NCBI GenBank assembly: GCA_903934285.1
Contig: CAIZNN010000256.1
Coordinates: forward strand, 1 to 58,405
Reading direction: 5' to 3'
Length of the DNA: 58,405 nt
DNA from: Akkermansiaceae bacterium
GTDB lineage: Bacteria > Verrucomicrobiota > Verrucomicrobiia > Verrucomicrobiales > Akkermansiaceae
Made by a program: the position numbers and the translations under genes. Below the pieces are notes generated by a model. It searched no databases. It saw only the letters and a program-made list of their open reading frames with translations, and was not told the DNA's origin. Of this stretch, positions 36,941 through 45,826 are shown in pieces. Position 1 is the first letter of the stretch. Every line of letters starts with the position of its first letter.

Positions 36941-38683
36941 TCATTTCTTCTTGCGCAGGAAGGGGGGCAGATCGAGGTCCTCGCCATCGACGACGTTGGG
37001 GGTTTGGCCCTCGAAGCGGCCGCGCGGCGTGGAGTCGAAGGCGAGTTCGTGTTGTGGAACTTGGGATTTGAGGCCGAGTTTGAGTTTGGGCGGCTCGGGC
37101 TCGGATTCGTCATCGAGACTGGTGACGAACGGGTCGGGTTGGACCGCTGGCGGACTGGGTGCCGCAGGATCTGCGGGCGGGGCTGGGGCGCTGCCGGCGG
37201 TGGCGGCAGCGGCAGCAGCGGCGGCAGCGGCGGCGGGCTTGCCCCAAGGGTTGTTGGGTGGGATGTAGGAGCGGGCGATGGGGCGGAAAACAAAGGCTGC
37301 CGGCTCGTTAGGGATTCTGGCGGCGGCGGCGGCAGTGGCGGCGGCGGGTTCCACGGCAGGCGGCGGTTCCGAATCGGTTAGGGCGGCGGCGTGGGGTTCC
37401 GCTTCGGGTGCCCCGGGCGCCTCGGCCGCGGCGGTGATGGCCGGTTCAGCGGCGGGCTCAGCGTCGGGCTCCGCTTCGGGTTCCGCTTCGGGCTCCGCGG
37501 CGGCAAAGAGCGACGGGACGTCGGCCTCGGCGGTTTGGCTGCGCCGCGGTTTGAGGGGGACGGGTGCGGCTGGCAGCTGGTCTAACGAAAAATCGCGGGC
37601 GGGGCCGGGCTCCAGGGTTGGCGCAGGCACCGGAGTATCCACCGCCACGCTGGCGGTGGGGGCGGCGTCCGGGGTGGCGGCGCTGAGCGTGTCGCGTGGG
37701 GCGGAGGCCAGCGAATCTTCCGGCAGGGCGCTGATCAGGGTCACGGAGAGGCTGTCGCCCATGGCCGGATCGATCACCGCACCGAACAACACCTGCGCGC
37801 TTTCCGGCACGAATTTTTGCAGCCGCTGCATGAGCAGTTCGACTTCGTAAAGGGTGAGGTCCTCACCGCCGGAGAGGTGGACGAGGACGGTCTGGGCCGT
37901 CTTGAGCAGCGCCCCTTGGTCGAGCAACGGGCTGGCAAGCGCATTGCGCAGCGCGCAGGACGCGCGGTCCTTGCCCTTGGCCAGGCCCGAGCCGAACAGG
38001 CAGCGCGAGCGGTTGGTGCGCAACGCGCTCATCAGGTCGTCCAGGCCGATGTTGATGAGGCCGGGGCGGACGACGAGCCGGATGACCGCTTTGATCGATT
38101 CGCAGATCATGTGATCGGCGGCGGCGAACGCCTCGTGGATGCCTTGCTTGGCAAGGACCAACTCGCCCATCCGGTTGTTATCAAAAGTGACCAGCGCGTT
38201 GGCCAGCACCGCCAGTTCGTTGAGGGTTGTTTCGGCTTGCTCGCGGCGGCGGCGGCCCTCGAAGGCAAACGGCATGGTGGCGAAAACCACCACAAAGGCC
38301 CCTTCCTCACGCGCGATGCGGGTGATGACGGGCGCGGCCCCGGAGCCGGTGCCGCCGCCCAGCCCGACACAGAGAAACACAATCCGCCGGCCGCGCAACG
38401 CGGTGCGGATTTCCGCCTCGGCCTCAAGCATGGCTTGGTGGCCCAGCTCGGGATCGCCGCCGGCGCCGAGCCCTTTGGTTAGATTGCGCCCCAGCTGGAT
38501 TTTTTCCCCGGCGACGCATCCCGACAAGGTCCGCGCGTCGGTGTTGAGAGCGAGCAGTTCGGCGCCTTCGGTGCCATCGAGGGCGACGCGTTCGAGCATG
38601 TTGACGCCGGCACCGCCCAGGCCGATGATTTTGACGGCGGAATTGGGCAGGGTTGGCTGGGGGCTGCGGTGATAGGGAATCAT
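36941..38683 (-). CDS. ftsZ: Cell division protein FtsZ, divergent, long linker
   Basis: This tubulin-like GTPase forms the division ring. The GTP-binding signature GGGTGSG is at 109-115 and GLGGAGVNML is near the start. The protein is 580 residues against about 390 usually. The extra length is an Ala/Pro/Glu-rich linker (about 320-560) before a canonical C-terminal peptide DLDLPPFLRKKK. The T7 catalytic loop reads N211-I-G-L-D-D216, so the first aspartate of NxDxxD is Gly213 while the second is kept. It is the last gene of the division cluster. Confidence 0.95.
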   Translation of the reverse strand: MIPYHRSPQPTLPNSAVKIIGLGGAGVNMLERVALDGTEGAELLALNTDARTLSGCVAGEKIQLGRNLTKGLGAGGDPELGHQAMLEAEAEIRTALRGRRIVFLCVGLGGGTGSGAAPVITRIAREEGAFVVVFATMPFAFEGRRRREQAETTLNELAVLANALVTFDNNRMGELVLAKQGIHEAFAAADHMICESIKAVIRLVVRPGLINIGLDDLMSALRTNRSRCLFGSGLAKGKDRASCALRNALASPLLDQGALLKTAQTVLVHLSGGEDLTLYEVELLMQRLQKFVPESAQVLFGAVIDPAMGDSLSVTLISALPEDSLASAPRDTLSAATPDAAPTASVAVDTPVPAPTLEPGPARDFSLDQLPAAPVPLKPRRSQTAEADVPSLFAAAEPEAEPEAEPDAEPAAEPAITAAAEAPGAPEAEPHAAALTDSEPPPAVEPAAATAAAAARIPNEPAAFVFRPIARSYIPPNNPWGKPAAAAAAAAAAATAGSAPAPPADPAAPSPPAVQPDPFVTSLDDESEPEPPKLKLGLKSQVPQHELAFDSTPRGRFEGQTPNVVDGEDLDLPPFLRKKK

Positions 38684-38741: not shown

Positions 38742-39956
38742 TCATTTGCCGAAGGGCCAGAACAGGCGGGTGAGCTTGCCCAGCATGCCGGGCGGCGCGG
38801 CGCGTTCGGTTTCGAGGATTTGGGCGTAGCGGATCAGGCCGATGGCGGTGGCGTATTGCGGGTCTTTGAAGCTGGCCTGGACGCCACTGAGTTCGGGCGG
38901 CTCGGGCCGGTAAATGTCGCGCCCGAACACATCGAAGGCCAGCTCGCTGAAGCCCCGCATCAGGCTGGTGCCACCAGTTAGGAAGATGCCGGCGCCGATG
39001 CTCTTGACCGAATTTTCCGGCAGTCGCTGGTAGACCAGGCGGAGGGTTTCCTCGAGCCGTTGGCGGATGATCTCGTTGAGGATGCTGCGCTGCACCTCCA
39101 CCTCCGCGAAGCCGCGCTCATCGACGAGCTTGGCGATGCCCACCGAGCGGGCCGGATCGGCCGAGGCGTCGCCCTCCATGATCTTGAGTTTTTCCGACTT
39201 GGAAAACGCCAGGCCGGTGACGAGGTGGATGTCGTTGGTGACGTGATCGCCCCCGACCGGGATGCAGCCGGAAGCGGCGATGGCCCCATCCAGATAGAGC
39301 GCGTAATCGGTGGTGCCGCCGCCGATGTCGATGACCAGCGCGCCGCGCTCGCGTTGTTCCTGATCGAGGGCCATCTGGGCGGTGGCGATCGGCGAAAAGA
39401 CAATGTCATCGACTTCGAGCGGGGTTTCGCGCACCAGGCGGATGCTGTTTTGAATGCGCGTGCCGATGCCGTGCACAATGTGGAAATCCGCCTCGACGGT
39501 CTTGCCATAGAGTCCGACCGGGCTGGTCTTGTGCTCGAGTTCATCCAACATGTAGTTGCGGATGATCGGATGGAGATGGACGTGATCGGGCGGGATGTGA
39601 ATGTCGCGGGCGATGGTGCGGGCTTCCTCGACATGTTCCGGGGCGACAATCGACTGGCCCTCGGGCAGGCGGAAGGTGCCGCGGCTGTTGATGCCTTGGA
39701 TGTGCGCGCCGGTGACTGCCAGATAGACGCTGCCGATCTCCACATCGCTGGCGTCCTCGGCTTTGACCAGGGCGTCCTTGAGGCAGGCGCGGGCTTGCGG
39801 GAAGTCATAGATTTCGCCCTTGCGCACGCCGGCGGTTTTGGTGGTGCCGATGCCGAGGATCTTCACCGCGGTATCGGGCTTGACCTCACCGACGACGATG
39901 CAGGTTTTACTGGTGCCAATTTCCAGTCCGACATGAATTTTTGAGCGGCGTGCCAT
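38742..39956 (-). CDS. ftsA: Cell division protein FtsA
   Basis: This actin-like protein tethers FtsZ to the membrane and recruits later division proteins. It has 404 residues, with VGLEIGTSKTCIVVGEV (phosphate 1), an SHS2/1C domain region, ALVIDIGGGTTDYALY (phosphate 2), GGDHVTNDI and IFLTGGTSLMRGF (adenosine motif). The C-terminal GMLGKLTRLFWPFGK is a typical amphipathic membrane-targeting helix. It lies between ftsQ and ftsZ on the same strand. Confidence 0.96.
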   Translation of the reverse strand: MARRSKIHVGLEIGTSKTCIVVGEVKPDTAVKILGIGTTKTAGVRKGEIYDFPQARACLKDALVKAEDASDVEIGSVYLAVTGAHIQGINSRGTFRLPEGQSIVAPEHVEEARTIARDIHIPPDHVHLHPIIRNYMLDELEHKTSPVGLYGKTVEADFHIVHGIGTRIQNSIRLVRETPLEVDDIVFSPIATAQMALDQEQRERGALVIDIGGGTTDYALYLDGAIAASGCIPVGGDHVTNDIHLVTGLAFSKSEKLKIMEGDASADPARSVGIAKLVDERGFAEVEVQRSILNEIIRQRLEETLRLVYQRLPENSVKSIGAGIFLTGGTSLMRGFSELAFDVFGRDIYRPEPPELSGVQASFKDPQYATAIGLIRYAQILETERAAPPGMLGKLTRLFWPFGK

Positions 39957-39980: not shown

Positions 39981-40973
39981 TCACTCCCGGCCGAGCAACG
40001 CCTTGAGATCGCGGGTGTGGCGATCCGGGCGCTCGGCTTGGGCGGTGGGTTCGGCGACCGGAATGGCCCGCGGCGGGGACGCATCGCTGCTGCCGGCGCC
40101 GATGACGGTGATGGGGACGTTCTCCTTGGGAATGAGGTTGATGGTGGCGATGGCATAACCTTTGTTAGCGGCATGCTGCAGGGCGCTGCGCAGGTTGGCC
40201 ACTTGCCGCGCATGATCGCCCAGTCCCACGGTGGCCACGGTGCCCGCGCGGGTGGTTAGGGCCAGCGACCAGGCATTGGCTTGTTTGACCGAGTCGATCC
40301 AAGGCGGGCCATCCGGGTCGCCGTCGTTGGTGCTGGCCAGCAGGCGCAGGCAGCGTTGCAACTCGGGTTGCTGGACTTTCTGGCCCATCACGATGGGTTG
40401 CTTGTCGCGCGCCGGCAACTCGATGATGGCTAGCGCCTCGGCTGCGGCCAATTGCCGGGCCGGACACGGATAGGCAATGTCATGGCTGTCCACCAGCATC
40501 CCCCCCGCCTGGCGCGCGGCGGGTTGGCCGGCGGCCGGGCAGGCCAGCCAGGCGCGCGGCGTGCGGGCGCTGACCCGCACCACCAAGGTGCCCGGCAGCC
40601 GCCGCTCGACCTGGGCGTCGGCAAGCTCCGGCAGGGATGTTAGGCGGCGGGCGATCGCCTTGCGATCGATCCGAAACAGGTTGGTGCGCAGATCGAGGCC
40701 GGTGATTCTAACAAAATCAAGCTCGTCAAGCGCCGGATTCGGGTTGAGGTCCACCACTTGCAAGCGGAAATCCGGATTGTCATAAAACGCCCGCTGCAGG
40801 CCCAACTGCACGCCCCAGCCGAGGCCGGCGAGGATGGCCAGCACGCAACCCGGCTTGATGCAGCGAAACAGCACCTTGAAAAGGCCGATGCGCAGCAGGC
40901 GGGTGGACCACACGCGGGCGTGCAGCACGTTGTTGCGGGCAGAGTTGCGGGATTTGGTGGATTGGCGCCTCAT
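39981..40973 (-). CDS. ftsQ: Cell division protein FtsQ
   Basis: This 330-residue bitopic membrane protein has a basic N-terminus and a membrane helix (CVLAILAGLGWGVQLGL, about 43-60). A POTRA domain follows (VRITGLDLRTNLFRIDRKAI, ELADAQVERRLPGTLVVRV). A beta domain carries WLAC and LVDSHDIAYPC. FtsQ links FtsA/FtsZ to FtsL, FtsB and the septal synthases. A charged tail follows. The position between ddl and ftsA is the conserved one in dcw clusters. Confidence 0.88.
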   Translation of the reverse strand: MRRQSTKSRNSARNNVLHARVWSTRLLRIGLFKVLFRCIKPGCVLAILAGLGWGVQLGLQRAFYDNPDFRLQVVDLNPNPALDELDFVRITGLDLRTNLFRIDRKAIARRLTSLPELADAQVERRLPGTLVVRVSARTPRAWLACPAAGQPAARQAGGMLVDSHDIAYPCPARQLAAAEALAIIELPARDKQPIVMGQKVQQPELQRCLRLLASTNDGDPDGPPWIDSVKQANAWSLALTTRAGTVATVGLGDHARQVANLRSALQHAANKGYAIATINLIPKENVPITVIGAGSSDASPPRAIPVAEPTAQAERPDRHTRDLKALLGRE

Positions 40974-41015: not shown

Positions 41016-41939
41016 TCAGGCGGATAGTCTGCGGTTGAGTGAGAGTGTGGCAATGGCGAGACAGAGATCCGGGAAGGAAATGCCCACCGCCGCCGCCGCC
41101 TTGGGCAGCAAGCTCGTCTCGGTCATGCCGGGAATGGTGTTGGCCTCCAGCACAAACGGCCGGTTGTCCTTGTCTAACAAAACGTCGACCCGCGAGTAAA
41201 TCTCGATGCCCAGCGCGCGGTGGGCGGCCAGGGCGGCTTGCTGGACCAGCAGGGTGGTGGCCGCATCCAGCGCGGCGGGGCAGAAGTAATCGCTGCCGGC
41301 GCTGCCACTGAGCCACGGGTATTTGTTAGCCAAGTCATAGAATCCGGAGCGGGGGGCGATGTGGACCACCGGCAGCGCGGCATCGTTGAGAATGCCCACG
41401 GTGAGCTCCTTGCCGTCGATGAATTCTTCCACCAGGATGTCATGGCCGTAGCGGGCGGCATCGGCCATGGCGGCCTGCGCGTCGGCCTGCTGGCGCACGA
41501 CATGCACGCCGACGCTGGAGCCTTCGCGCGGCGGTTTGACGACAAAGGGTGCGGCCAACGCCGGCAAGCGCGGGCCGCCGGACACATCGACGATTTCGGC
41601 GCGCGGGGTGGGGACGTGGTGGGCCAGAAAGGCCGCTTTGGCTAGGTTCTTATCGAAGGCCAGGCGGCTGCTGGCGGCACCGGCGCCGGTGTAGGCGACG
41701 CCGAGGCGATCGAGCAGGTCCTGGAGTTGGCCGTCTTCGCCAAAGGTGCCGTGGATGACGTTGAAGGCCAGATCGGTGCCGGCGGGCAGCTCGAGGCGGG
41801 TGGTGGTGACGTCCACGGCCACCGCGTTGAGGCCGCGACCTAACAAGGCTTTGAGCACGGCGGCGCCGGAGGCCAGCGAGATCTCGCGCTCGGAACCCGG
41901 ACCGCCCATCAGCACGGCGATTTTGTTAGATAGTGGCAT
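41016..41939 (-). CDS. ddl: D-alanine--D-alanine ligase
   Basis: The enzyme makes the D-Ala-D-Ala dipeptide for peptidoglycan. The 307-residue ATP-grasp protein starts with AVLMGGPGSEREISLASG, then AFNVIHGTFGEDGQLQDLLD, FVVKPPREGSSVGVH and the metal site EANTIPGMTETSLLPKAAAA. Its length is standard for the short Ddl class. It lies between murC-murB and ftsQ, separated from murC-murB by 128 bases that hold a heptamer-like repeat hairpin. Confidence 0.95.
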   Translation of the reverse strand: MPLSNKIAVLMGGPGSEREISLASGAAVLKALLGRGLNAVAVDVTTTRLELPAGTDLAFNVIHGTFGEDGQLQDLLDRLGVAYTGAGAASSRLAFDKNLAKAAFLAHHVPTPRAEIVDVSGGPRLPALAAPFVVKPPREGSSVGVHVVRQQADAQAAMADAARYGHDILVEEFIDGKELTVGILNDAALPVVHIAPRSGFYDLANKYPWLSGSAGSDYFCPAALDAATTLLVQQAALAAHRALGIEIYSRVDVLLDKDNRPFVLEANTIPGMTETSLLPKAAAAVGISFPDLCLAIATLSLNRRLSA

Positions 41940-42067: not shown

Positions 42068-44368
42068 TTAGAATTGTGCTTCGTCGTCGCCGAGGATTTT
42101 GACTTCGGTTTCCAGTTCGATGTGGCGGTGCAGGCGGGCTTGGTGGCGGATGGTTTCGATGAGGTTGAGCACATCGCTGGCGCTGGCGCCGCCTTGGTTG
42201 ATGATGAAATTGCCATGCTGCTCGGAGACTGCGGCGTGGCCGCAGGTGGTGCCTTTGAGGCCGAGGGCATCGACGAGTTTGCCGGCGGGGAGGTCAGCGG
42301 GATTGCGGAAGACGCAACCGGCGGAGGCGGAGACCGGCTGGGTGGCGCGGCGTTTGTCGCGGCACTCATCCCAGCGTTGCTTGATGGTGGCCGAAGTCTC
42401 GGCTTTACCCCTGAACACCGCCTGCATGGCAAAATTGCGCCGCAGCTCGGGCACGTTGCGGTATTGCGCCACGATTTCCGCCCGCTCGCGGGTGCGGATC
42501 ACGCCGTCTTCATCGAGGAAGGTGACGCGCACGATTTGGTCGAAGGTTTCCACCCCCATGGCCCCGGCATTCATCCGCAGCGCCCCGCCGACGTTGCCAG
42601 GAATCCCTTCCATCCACTCGAAGCCGCCTATGCCGTGGCCGGCGGCAAAGCCCGCCAGTTTCTTGAGCCGCACGCCCGCGCCGGCGACAATGAGGCCCTT
42701 GCCATCTAACGACACCTCGGAGAACACCCCGCCCGCAGGATGGATCACCGCGCCGCGGATGCCGCCATCGCGGACTAACAAGTTGGAGCCGCGGCCCACG
42801 ACGCGCACCGGGATGCCGCGGGCGCGGCAGTATTCGACGAGAAAGGCGAAGCCATAGAAGCTGTGCGGCTCGAGCCAATATTGGGCGGGGCCGCCGACCA
42901 ACAGGGTGGTGTGGCGCTTCATCGGTTCATAGAGGCTGCCGGTGATTTCGCCCGGCGGCATCAGGGCGCGCATTTCCTCGAGCACCTTGAGGTCGGCGGC
43001 GATGCGGCTGCCGGCTTCGTGGACATTGCCGGCACCGAGGGTGAGCAACAAATCGCCGGGTTTGAGGGCATTGCCGACGGCATGATGGGCGGTGGCGAGG
43101 TCAGGCACGGAGGTGGCGGGAACCACGCCGTGGCGGTTCATCGCGGCGATGAGGGTATCGCCGGAAATGTCTGGGATCGGGGTTTCGGAGGCCGCATAGA
43201 CATCGGTGATGAATACCCGGTCGGCCGCTTGCAGCACCTTGCCGAAGTCGTCGGCCAGCGCCTGGGTGCGGGTGTAGCGGTGCGGTTGAAACAACACGAT
43301 GAGTCGCTCCGGCTTGAGCGAGCGGGCGGTCTGCAAGGTGGCGGCCAGCTCGGATGGATGATGGCCGTAGTCATCGATGATGCGGTATTGCGCCGAGAGG
43401 TATTTGGTCTCGAAGCGGCGCTTGGCACCGGCAAAGGTGGCCAGCGCGCGGGCCACCAGCGCGAACTCGGCCCCGCAGCTATCTGCTAGAGCGATGGCGG
43501 CCAGGGCGTTGAGGATGTTGTGGTTGCCGGGGATGCCCAGCTCGATATCGCCGAGGATGGCGCCGCGTTTGCTGACCGTGAAGGCCGACGAGCCCTTGAG
43601 ATCGCGCACCGCGGTGGCCGTGAAGTCGGCATCCTCCCAGCCGTAGGACAGCGCGTTGGCACGGCCGCTGCAGACGTCGTGGGCCACCGGGTCTTCGGCG
43701 CAATACACCAGGGTGCCGGTGGTTTGATTGGCGAGGGTGGTGAAGACCTCGCGGATGTGGTCGAGATCCCGATAGAAATCGAGGTGCTCGGATTCGATGT
43801 TGAGGATGACGGCGTGCGCGGGATGATAGAGCGCCAGTGTGCCATCGCTCTCATCCCCCTCGGCCACCATGTGGGTGCCCTCCGCGACCCAGCGGGCGTT
43901 GCTGCCCAGAATCGGGATTTCCGCGCCGACGTAGTGGCTGGGTTTCATGCCGGCTTCACGCAAGGCATGGGCGGTCATCGCCGAGGTGGTGGTTTTGCCG
44001 TGGGTGCCGGCAATGATGATGCCTTGCTTGGTGTGGAGGATGGCCGCCAGACACTCGGCTCGGCGCAACAGCGGGACGCCGCCGGCCAGCGCCGCGGCAT
44101 AGGCCGGATTGGCCGGGCGGATGGCCGAGGAATAGACGACGAGATCCGCGCCTTTGACCGCGCTCGCCGTGTGGGGCGAGGAGAAAACCAGCCCCACGCC
44201 CTGCATCCGCTCGGTTTCCGCGGTGGTGACCCGATCCGAGCCGCTGACCTTGTGGCCCAGCCCTAACAAGAGGAGGGCGAGCCCGCTCATGCCCGAGCCG
44301 GCCACCCCGATGAGGTGAATGTGTAGGGGTTGCTCGTGCCGGGTGAGGCGTTGGGTCAGATCGGTCAT
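42068..44368 (-). CDS. murCB: Fused MurC-MurB (UDP-MurNAc--L-Ala ligase / UDP-GlcNAc-enolpyruvate reductase)
   Basis: One 766-residue protein carries two cytoplasmic enzymes. Residues 1 to about 455 are MurC, with HLIGVAGSGMSGLALLLLG, the ATP loop IIAGTHGKTTTSAMTAHAL and DDYGHHPSE. From about 470 comes MurB, with GRGSNLLVRDGGIRG, the FAD-site IPGNVGGALRMNAGA, and a C-terminal catalytic region with SEQHGNFIINQGGASA. MurB makes UDP-MurNAc and MurC adds L-Ala to it, so consecutive steps are fused. The start overlaps the murG stop by ATGA. Such fusions are known in Verrucomicrobiota and Chlamydiae relatives. Confidence 0.95.
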   Translation of the reverse strand: MTDLTQRLTRHEQPLHIHLIGVAGSGMSGLALLLLGLGHKVSGSDRVTTAETERMQGVGLVFSSPHTASAVKGADLVVYSSAIRPANPAYAAALAGGVPLLRRAECLAAILHTKQGIIIAGTHGKTTTSAMTAHALREAGMKPSHYVGAEIPILGSNARWVAEGTHMVAEGDESDGTLALYHPAHAVILNIESEHLDFYRDLDHIREVFTTLANQTTGTLVYCAEDPVAHDVCSGRANALSYGWEDADFTATAVRDLKGSSAFTVSKRGAILGDIELGIPGNHNILNALAAIALADSCGAEFALVARALATFAGAKRRFETKYLSAQYRIIDDYGHHPSELAATLQTARSLKPERLIVLFQPHRYTRTQALADDFGKVLQAADRVFITDVYAASETPIPDISGDTLIAAMNRHGVVPATSVPDLATAHHAVGNALKPGDLLLTLGAGNVHEAGSRIAADLKVLEEMRALMPPGEITGSLYEPMKRHTTLLVGGPAQYWLEPHSFYGFAFLVEYCRARGIPVRVVGRGSNLLVRDGGIRGAVIHPAGGVFSEVSLDGKGLIVAGAGVRLKKLAGFAAGHGIGGFEWMEGIPGNVGGALRMNAGAMGVETFDQIVRVTFLDEDGVIRTRERAEIVAQYRNVPELRRNFAMQAVFRGKAETSATIKQRWDECRDKRRATQPVSASAGCVFRNPADLPAGKLVDALGLKGTTCGHAAVSEQHGNFIINQGGASASDVLNLIETIRHQARLHRHIELETEVKILGDDEAQF

Positions 44369-45462
44369 GGGGCGGAAAAGCTGGATTCGATGGCGGTGCA
44401 GACCCGCGCGGCGGCATCCGGAATGGCGAGGGCGAGGGCCGCCTGGCGCATCCGGTCGCGGGTTGCTTGGTCTAGCAGAATCGTGGCGGCCTGGGCGGCG
44501 AGTTGCTCCGCGCTGAGGTCGCGTTCCTGGATGAGGGTGGCGGCGCCGGCCCGCGCGAAGACTTCGGCGTTGCGGGTTTGGTGGTCGTCGGCGGCAAACG
44601 GATAGGGCACCAGGATCGAGGGCAGGCCGGCGAGCGCGATTTCAGTTAGGCTCGACGCGCCGGCACGGGCGATGACGAGGTCGGCGATGGCGTAGGCGGC
44701 GGGCATGTCGTCACAGAAGCCGAGCACTTGATAGCCGGCGCGGCCGGCGGAAATTTGCGCGACGCGGGCACAGTCCGAGGTGCCGGCGATATGCAGCACC
44801 TGGGTGGCCGGCGGCAAGTTGGCGGCGGCTTGGGCGCACAGTTCGTTGAGGCGGTGGGCACCTTGGCTGCCGCCGGTGACCACCACCGTCGGCCGGGTCG
44901 GGTCCAGGCCGAAGCGGGCGGCGGCTTGGGCCCGCGGCGGCAGGTGCGAAATTTCCGGGCGGGCGGGGGTGCCGGTGGTGAGCGTCGCGCGGTTGGGGAA
45001 AAATGTCTTGGCCGCCTCCAGGCCGAGGAGCACGCCACTGCAGAACCGGCTGGTGAGCACATTGGCGCGGCCGGGCCGGGCGTTGGAATCGTGAATGAAC
45101 GTCTTGAGGCCGAGCCTGTGGCCGGCGAAAACCGGCGGCAGCGAGGTGAAGCCGCCCATGCCGAGCACCGCCTCGGCACCGAACTCGCGGAGCAGGCGCT
45201 GGCATTGGCGCACCGAACGCCACAGCGTCCACAAAAACGCCAGCATGCGCGGCGATAGCGTGGGTGGCTTGGCCACCGCCGGGATGGCCGCAAAGCGCAG
45301 GTGCCGGTATTTCGCGCTCGCCTCGGCATCCACGGGCTTTTCCGAAATCAACAACAACACCTCATGGCCGCGCCCCAGCAACGCCTCGGCTACCGCTATG
45401 CCGGGGAATAGATGGCCGCCTGTGCCGCCACAGGCAATGAGGATTTTACGGGACTTGGGCAC
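44365..45462 (-). CDS. murG: UDP-GlcNAc--undecaprenyl-PP-MurNAc-pentapeptide transferase (MurG)
   Basis: MurG makes lipid II at the inner membrane. The 365-residue GT-B protein begins at a GTG (PKSRKILIACGGTGGHLFPG). It also shows GFTSLPPVFAGHRLG, a VTGGSQGAHRLNEL loop and the donor-site motif ARAGASSLTEIALAGLPSIL with ADDHQTRNAE. The frame continues open upstream to 45696 without family similarity. It is the first recognisable gene of the division cluster here; ftsW and mraY are not in the window. Confidence 0.94.
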   Translation of the reverse strand: MPKSRKILIACGGTGGHLFPGIAVAEALLGRGHEVLLLISEKPVDAEASAKYRHLRFAAIPAVAKPPTLSPRMLAFLWTLWRSVRQCQRLLREFGAEAVLGMGGFTSLPPVFAGHRLGLKTFIHDSNARPGRANVLTSRFCSGVLLGLEAAKTFFPNRATLTTGTPARPEISHLPPRAQAAARFGLDPTRPTVVVTGGSQGAHRLNELCAQAAANLPPATQVLHIAGTSDCARVAQISAGRAGYQVLGFCDDMPAAYAIADLVIARAGASSLTEIALAGLPSILVPYPFAADDHQTRNAEVFARAGAATLIQERDLSAEQLAAQAATILLDQATRDRMRQAALALAIPDAAARVCTAIESSFSAP

Positions 45463-45589
45463 GGGCGTAAGGATCAAGCAACGGCTACCGACATGCCAAA
45501 ACCGGTTTGGCCACGCCTGAGGGAGATTTGAAACAAATCTTGATAATTCGGCAATCCATAATGTGGGCCGATGGAAAGTTTTTTTTCCC

Positions 45590-45826
45590 TCACAGCTGCC
45601 TGCGGACCTGGTCGGTGACGTACCATTCTTCGACCTTGAGGCGGGCCCAGGGGGTTTTGCGGAGGAAGGTGAGACTGGATTTGAGGGTCGGTTCAAACAG
45701 AAAACACCGGATCGGAATGCGCCGGCTCATTTCGTCCCAGCCGTGCCGGTCCACCAGATAGCGCACGATGGTTTCCAAGGTGACGCCATGCAGCGGGTCA
45801 TTGGGATGGGAGGCGGGCGAGGGCAT
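45590..45826 (-). CDS. VF530-family (DUF2132) small DNA-binding-like protein
   Basis: This 78-residue protein matches the VF530/DUF2132 family: [40 protein letters not shown] and [15 protein letters not shown]. The family has a compact helical fold and has been suggested to bind DNA; its role is unknown. It lies 127 bases upstream of murG on the same strand. A GC-rich repeat tract (45843-45892) is just upstream of its start. Confidence 0.9.

Follow-up and report, generated by a model that had tools for sequence, protein, structure and literature searches.

The two acidic residues of the T7 loop (NxDxxD) are regarded as conserved across FtsZ proteins and are held to underlie treadmilling, a process believed to organise the synthesis of the septal wall. 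Filament structures of Staphylococcus aureus FtsZ give a part to several residues in and around this loop (PMC8936486): D210, the first T7 acid, positions the catalytic water by a swinging movement; D213, the second, and the T3 glycine G72 keep their position beside that water; R143 behaves like an arginine finger; and Q48 locks K+ into the next subunit's T7 loop, with N208 binding the ion. The D210N substitution abolishes assembly of the S. aureus protein (PMC8936486), and in fission yeast Escherichia coli FtsZ D209A gives structures that resemble aggregates (PMC3684127), so the first aspartate may be as important for assembly as it is for chemistry. At the second position, E. coli D212G retains the ability to form rings in vitro, but these are static and the GTPase activity is approximately tenfold lower (PMC7320174), and complementation by the mutant requires a suppressor (PMC5405962). 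These properties suggest that a one-acid site works poorly in an unadapted protein, D210N and D212G each being a single mutant of a protein whose evolution took place with both acids present.

Divergence of verrucomicrobial FtsZ, to which the initial annotation of the locus studied here pointed, has already been published (PMC1845146, PMC9871819) and is borne out below; division in the PVC superphylum has been reviewed (PMC5147048). The FtsZ of Verrucomicrobium spinosum departs from all other compared FtsZ proteins at eight positions (PMC1845146), which may include changes in the T7 loop. Neither PMC1845146 nor PMC9871819 uses the terms 'T7 loop' or 'catalytic' in its main text, and 'active site' is absent from that of PMC12283558. 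In the literature outside subscription papers, we found by title no study of verrucomicrobial FtsZ biochemistry, and we found no published statement that a T7 aspartate has been lost in the Verrucomicrobiota. What is described here is a natural one-acid FtsZ, together with its reciprocal counterpart in a different clade of the same class; verrucomicrobial divergence itself was known.

The ftsZ gene and its T7 loop

The window (the whole stretch of DNA that was analysed, 58,405 nucleotides) encodes an FtsZ of 580 aa at 36941–38683 on the minus strand, the initial annotation having given no strand. The gene was delimited from its ORF and translation and is the sole ftsZ detected in the assembly. 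It belongs to an intact dcw cluster, in which the genes lie on this one strand in the order murG (44365–45696; PF03033 and PF04101), a murC–murB fusion of 766 aa (42068–44368; Mur ligase domains, then FAD_binding_4 and MurB_C), ddl for D-Ala-D-Ala ligase (41016–41939; PF07478 and PF01820), ftsQ with an FtsQ-type POTRA domain (39981–40973; PF08478), ftsA (38742–39956; PF14450 and PF02491 above cut-off) and ftsZ. A murCB fusion such as that at 42068–44368 is also known from V. spinosum (PMC12283558).

The protein scores 132.3 bits against the Tubulin/FtsZ GTPase profile PF00091 (Pfam cut-off of 33) and 77 bits against the FtsZ_C profile PF12327 (cut-off of 27). Its score against the NCBI ftsZ equivalog TIGR00065, the only NCBI family among the matches listed, is 275.5 bits, under the cut-off of 295.2, which we read as divergence and not as another family. 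The tubulin signature GGGTGSG occupies residues 109–115 (38339–38359, minus strand). In the AlphaFold model, the FtsZ domain is confident, with pLDDT mostly above 85, and all 50 PDB matches listed for the model are FtsZ (target-normalised TM of 0.76–0.88), the best matches of the predicted fold being FtsZ crystals. The domain is followed by a Pro/Ala/Glu-rich linker comprising residues 323–566 (36986–37717, minus strand), which is modelled as disordered (pLDDT below 50 over most of its length); the approximately 244 residues counted between the start of this linker at residue 323 and the C-terminal peptide agree with the approximately 240 that had been claimed. The C-terminal peptide, GEDLDLPPFLRKKK (36944–36985, minus strand), is present at the protein end and is intact, again as annotated; from its resemblance to the ends of many relatives, it is a putative FtsA-contacting peptide. 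Within the same family (code f1), FtsZ proteins L016, L017, L018, L020, L021, L023 and L027 of genus code g2, presumably Akkermansia, have a tail unlike the DLDxPxFLR peptide (for example, LNDLKNIFPDN), with one FtsZ match in each of these genomes.

Direct reading of the codons places the T7 motif N211-I-G213-L-D215-D216 at 38036–38053 on the minus strand, with N211 at 38051–38053, Gly213 (codon GGC) at 38045–38047 and Asp216 at 38036–38038. The initial annotation had taken this motif to have lost the first aspartate of NxDxxD and kept the last. HMMER alignments (five shown) to solved FtsZ chains of staphylococcal and E. coli type contain no gap in the T7 region and pair G213 with D209/D210, D216 with D212/D213 and N211 with N207/N208 (E. 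coli/S. aureus). Alignment with 12 FtsZ proteins from outside the phylum gave the same placement of G213 and D216, and no other aspartate aligns at the G213 column in either comparison. The gap-free alignments put the glycine on the first, catalytic aspartate and Asp216 on the last, and the annotated substitution stands.

No second ftsZ was found in the assembly that contains the window (4.8 Mb, 282 contigs, 96.9% complete): the PF00091 profile gave one hit only, and a query with E. coli FtsZ at E ≤ 1 yielded the same single gene. A second, canonical FtsZ that performs division, which the initial annotation had considered, is therefore not found in this assembly. The PF00091 profile also detected no tubulin beside FtsZ, and PF03953 (Tubulin_C) had no hit in this genome, in a search that gave no hit in any control genome either. 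With the E. coli query, one full-length FtsZ each was found in genomes G222, G218, G219, G110 and G071. Extra weak hits of approximately 90 residues (E of 0.002–0.006) were seen in G110 (C5:70377–70643) and G219 (C273:96071–96331), in frames of 733–789 aa, and may represent a distant nucleotide-binding family. The window protein is most likely a genuine division FtsZ, from a verrucomicrobium of the Akkermansiaceae type.

Distribution and history of one-acid T7 loops

Residue frequencies were determined in a set of 277 rows (265 from the phylum and 12 from outside it) that remained after identical proteins were removed. The set was drawn from a class sample (141 genomes, 138 with an FtsZ match and 130 sequences fetched), a phylum sample (115 genomes, 114 with a match, fetched in part, some genomes overlapping with the class sample), a named set (80 loci, giving 78 rows with identical proteins counted once), three genomes in the genus of Verrucomicrobium sp. 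BvORR034 and the 12 outside records. The window's own family, f1, contributes 20 of the 130 class-sample rows, the window included.

Glycine stands at position 213 in 119 of the 265 phylum sequences, which rules out a sequencing or chance slip at this codon. An artefact of sequencing, assembly or alignment has a negligible probability, as Gly213 recurs in dozens of assemblies, two Luteolibacter isolates among them, with gap-free flanks. The nearest named relatives of the window FtsZ are Akkermansiaceae and Luteolibacter. Gly213 is present in 77 of the 78 distinct loci among the named best matches, with Glu in the remaining one, numbers that gauge the depth of conservation and not its frequency because these loci are the best matches of a Gly-type alignment; it is also present in all 20 f1 rows. 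The protein had been described as an unusual FtsZ, and this is correct in comparison with other FtsZ proteins; among its relatives the description fails, as Gly213 is the rule there.

Exactly one T7 acid is found in 212 of the 265 phylum sequences. The acid at 216 is the only one in 158 and Asp213 the only one in 54, with both acids present in 45 and neither in 8. In the class sample (n = 130), the corresponding numbers are 70, 28, 26 and 6, four of the six rows with neither being gaps of family code f8; in the other classes of the phylum (n = 53), they are 8, 25, 19 and 1; and both acids are present in all 12 outside FtsZ proteins. The reverse of the window's type occurs in family code f13, probably Opitutales, in which the first T7 Asp is kept and the second (E. 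coli D212) is replaced in 13 of 13 rows, by Thr (8), Ala (3), Gly (1) or Ser (1) (for example, in L067, L068, L071 and L054). The class thus holds reciprocal types, with only the second acid in Akkermansiaceae, Verrucomicrobium and Chthoniobacterales and only the first in what are probably Opitutales. A rule that at least one T7 acid is kept is not significant when relatedness is controlled (p = 0.09; median p of 0.25), and the raw count of eight sequences with neither acid includes four alignment gaps. In the FtsZ of f8 (L126, L127, L128 and L131; genomes of 2.2–2.5 Mb), a family that is probably Methylacidiphilales, the T7 loop is unalignable and hmmsearch scores are 88–132 bits.

The 119 Gly213 rows were grouped by their glycine, and their constancy at this position is by construction. 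Their codons, however, are GGG in 42, GGC in 38, GGT in 21 and GGA in 18, in sequences whose pairwise identity has a median of 50%; this use of all four Gly codons across such divergence makes it appear that Gly213 is kept by selection. As 59 of the 119 codons (GGC and GGT) are a single step from Asp, the absence of Asp is hardly due to a shortage of mutation. Independent support for conservation of the glycine comes from the named set, the f1 rows and the phylogeny.

A mixture-model tree (IQ-TREE) was built from 78 of the 277 rows, hand-picked with the longest branches omitted and with the T7 columns excluded. In this tree, 37 of the 40 rows without the first Asp fall in one clade (SH-aLRT of 99), which contains the window's family, the presumed V. 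spinosum, L180 (a bin labelled Prosthecobacter), Thr/Ser/His types and the f10 group; a separate clade, with a support of 100, is made up of ten rows in which Asp213 is combined with Thr, Ala or Ser at 216. Three changes are enough at 213 and two at 216. A FastTree of 211 of the 277 rows (62 of the 78 named loci and the four unalignable f8 rows were omitted), which contains many weak or long branches, requires 14 changes at 213 (8 for Gly versus the rest) and 17 at 216, and a named Chthoniobacterales bin falls beside the f10 group in it. Together, the two trees suggest that the main loss of the first T7 Asp was old and shared, and that further losses, and some further Gly, arose elsewhere.

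Use in division and the proposed remodelling of the GTPase site

Genome G222, which we infer to be V. spinosum, sits in the genus of Verrucomicrobium sp. BvORR034, and its FtsZ is 673 aa when read from the ATG at frame position 5; the published length of V. spinosum FtsZ is also 673 aa (PMC1845146). The G222 T7 loop reads GIVRMGIADL, with the Asn and the first Asp absent and the second Asp present. In V. spinosum, ftsZ is essential by transposon sequencing, its C-terminal extension included, and canonical binary fission was concluded for this species (PMC12283558). If the identity of G222 holds, essential division is compatible with a T7 loop in which the first Asp is missing, and by this analogy a Gly213-type FtsZ such as that of the window is presumably active enough for cell division. 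These observations bear on whether the protein is instead a relaxed, decaying FtsZ, heading to FtsZ-independent division like that of other PVC phyla. Decay would be in keeping with the four unalignable f8 sequences, which are among the eight phylum sequences with neither acid, and with the description of M. infernorum FtsZ as fast-evolving (PMC2474590). Given the near-uniform Gly213 of the named best matches, the intact dcw cluster in the window and the essential ftsZ of V. spinosum, however, we regard it as very improbable.

Around the missing aspartate, other active-site positions are kept. Among the 119 Gly213 rows, Asp49 in T2 (38537–38539, minus strand; S. aureus D46) is found in 119, the T3 glycine G75 (S. 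aureus G72) in 119, and Asp or Glu at 216 in 119. Arg146 (38246–38248, minus strand), which we equate with the arginine-finger-like S. aureus R143 by motif and numbering, is found in 116. Arg51 (38531–38533, minus strand) replaces S. aureus Q48, this position being Arg in 89 and Gln in 22 of the 119 rows.

The loss of a residue called catalytic in S. aureus (PMC8936486), and the static rings that E. coli D212G forms at approximately tenfold lower GTPase activity (PMC7320174), would suit a pseudo-GTPase that binds GTP and assembles with no useful hydrolysis, its filaments being turned over by partners or by slow exchange and treadmilling being unneeded. We consider this unlikely, as the remaining catalytic positions, among them D/E216 and R146, are conserved in 116–119 of 119 rows, which would be unexpected after activity had long been lost, and E. 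coli D212G needs a suppressor to complement (PMC5405962).

Compensation for the lost aspartate by D215, by a T3 Asp or by basic residues at the K+ ligands was not established for any of the three by sequence comparison and trees. For D215, the acid would have shifted two places (NxDxxD to NxGxDD), with D215 taking over in full within the loop. This residue is present in 105 of the 119 Gly213 rows, and Ala, Ser or Asn occupies the position in most Asp213 rows. D215 is nevertheless dispensable, as Ala or Ser occupies position 215 in the presumed V. spinosum and in other proteins (GIADL, GLADL and GLSDI); it needs just six changes on the tree and gains no independent support from it; and residue 215 is modelled in the first turn of the helix that follows the loop. 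D215 as the moved acid was thus rejected, and full compensation within the loop is quite unlikely. At position 77 in T3, where E. coli has Asn, an acid (Asp or Glu) is found in 218 of 222 phylum rows; Asp77 was discarded as an in-cis substitute, as Asp is found there in 5 of the 12 outside FtsZ proteins, which have both T7 acids. Finally, Arg, Lys or His occurs at 51 and/or 211 in 111 of 119 Gly213 rows versus 29 of 99 Asp213 rows. A coupling of these basic residues to the loss of Asp was unsupported once relatedness was controlled (median p of 1), the ten independent pairs for Arg or Lys at 51/211 giving a mean of 2.1 for, 0.8 against and 7.1 with no difference; many Thr/Ser/His213 sequences have no basic residue at 51/211.

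We favour, as the probable reading, a working division FtsZ with a one-acid T7 site in which hydrolysis is slower or rerouted. The residues, their conservation, their distribution among clades, the single copy, the dcw context and the predicted FtsZ fold on which it builds are observed; the score below the TIGR00065 cut-off is a point against it. The first T7 Asp would have been lost in an ancestor common to Akkermansiaceae-like bacteria, Verrucomicrobiaceae and Chthoniobacterales, to be succeeded by what is now mostly a selected Gly, and D216, D49 in T2, G75 in T3 and R146 would have stayed through this loss. The cross-subunit GTPase site would then run on one T7 acid rather than two. GTP hydrolysis in the filament would persist, with D216 and the backbone of G75 holding the water and with R146, and possibly Arg51, also participating in the remodelled site. 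Hydrolysis would probably be slower, the monovalent-cation site would be altered by Arg51 in place of the K+-locking Gln, and the slower filament turnover would be tolerated or offset by the cells. Reduced GTP turnover, which the initial annotation expected, is plausible by analogy with the laboratory mutants, and verrucomicrobial FtsZ has had a long time for adaptation to one acid. In cells that continue to rely on FtsZ, its textbook active site appears to have been remodelled. More tentatively, the Verrucomicrobiota might hold two reciprocal, naturally fixed one-acid FtsZ sites, so that the chemistry of water activation would not be universal among FtsZ proteins; in the type that keeps only the second acid, a basic residue (Arg51, or Arg/Lys at 211) would stand in for the cation, and the GTPase would be independent of K+ and differ in treadmilling. 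We hold this proposal to be possible but doubtful.

A large clade with cultured members that divide by a one-acid FtsZ would be a natural test of how much catalysis is needed for division, and of which T7 acid does what, for which the reciprocal loss in a second clade of the class offers a ready-made pair. If genus g2 is Akkermansia, a common gut bacterium has the same change, and inhibitors in contact with the T7 loop may act on its FtsZ in a different way. Traced to the active site, the divergence already known for verrucomicrobial FtsZ acquires a testable meaning.

Comparison with known FtsZ proteins and tubulins

The window protein shares with canonical FtsZ (E. coli, S. aureus and B. subtilis) both domains, the GGGTG[ST]G signature, the C-terminal peptide, the ftsQ–ftsA–ftsZ order and the fold, as well as the equivalents of D49, G75, R146 and D216. 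It differs from canonical FtsZ in the Gly that replaces the first T7 Asp, the Arg that replaces the K+-locking Gln, the linker of approximately 244 residues and the sub-cut-off TIGR00065 score. The FtsZ of V. spinosum (PMC1845146, PMC12283558) has, in the genome that we assign to it, the same Gly at the first Asp and the same retained second Asp, and this species also has the long C-terminal extension, the dcw cluster and the murC–murB fusion. In its T7 loop, however, the Asn is also replaced, by Arg (RMGIAD), whereas the window protein keeps the Asn and has D215.

E. coli D212G and S. aureus D210N resemble the window protein in that one of the two T7 acids has been removed, but they are laboratory mutants with lost activity or assembly, whereas the state in the window is natural and clade-wide. 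The FtsZ of Nitrosopumilus maritimus is likewise a natural protein described as having no conserved T7 loop; it does not polymerise, and this archaeon also has Cdv proteins (PMC3684127). By contrast, the window's FtsZ is the sole copy found, and a close relative requires FtsZ. BtubA and BtubB of Prosthecobacter belong to the same phylum and superfamily, but they are tubulins that occur beside FtsZ there, whereas the window protein carries FtsZ_C.
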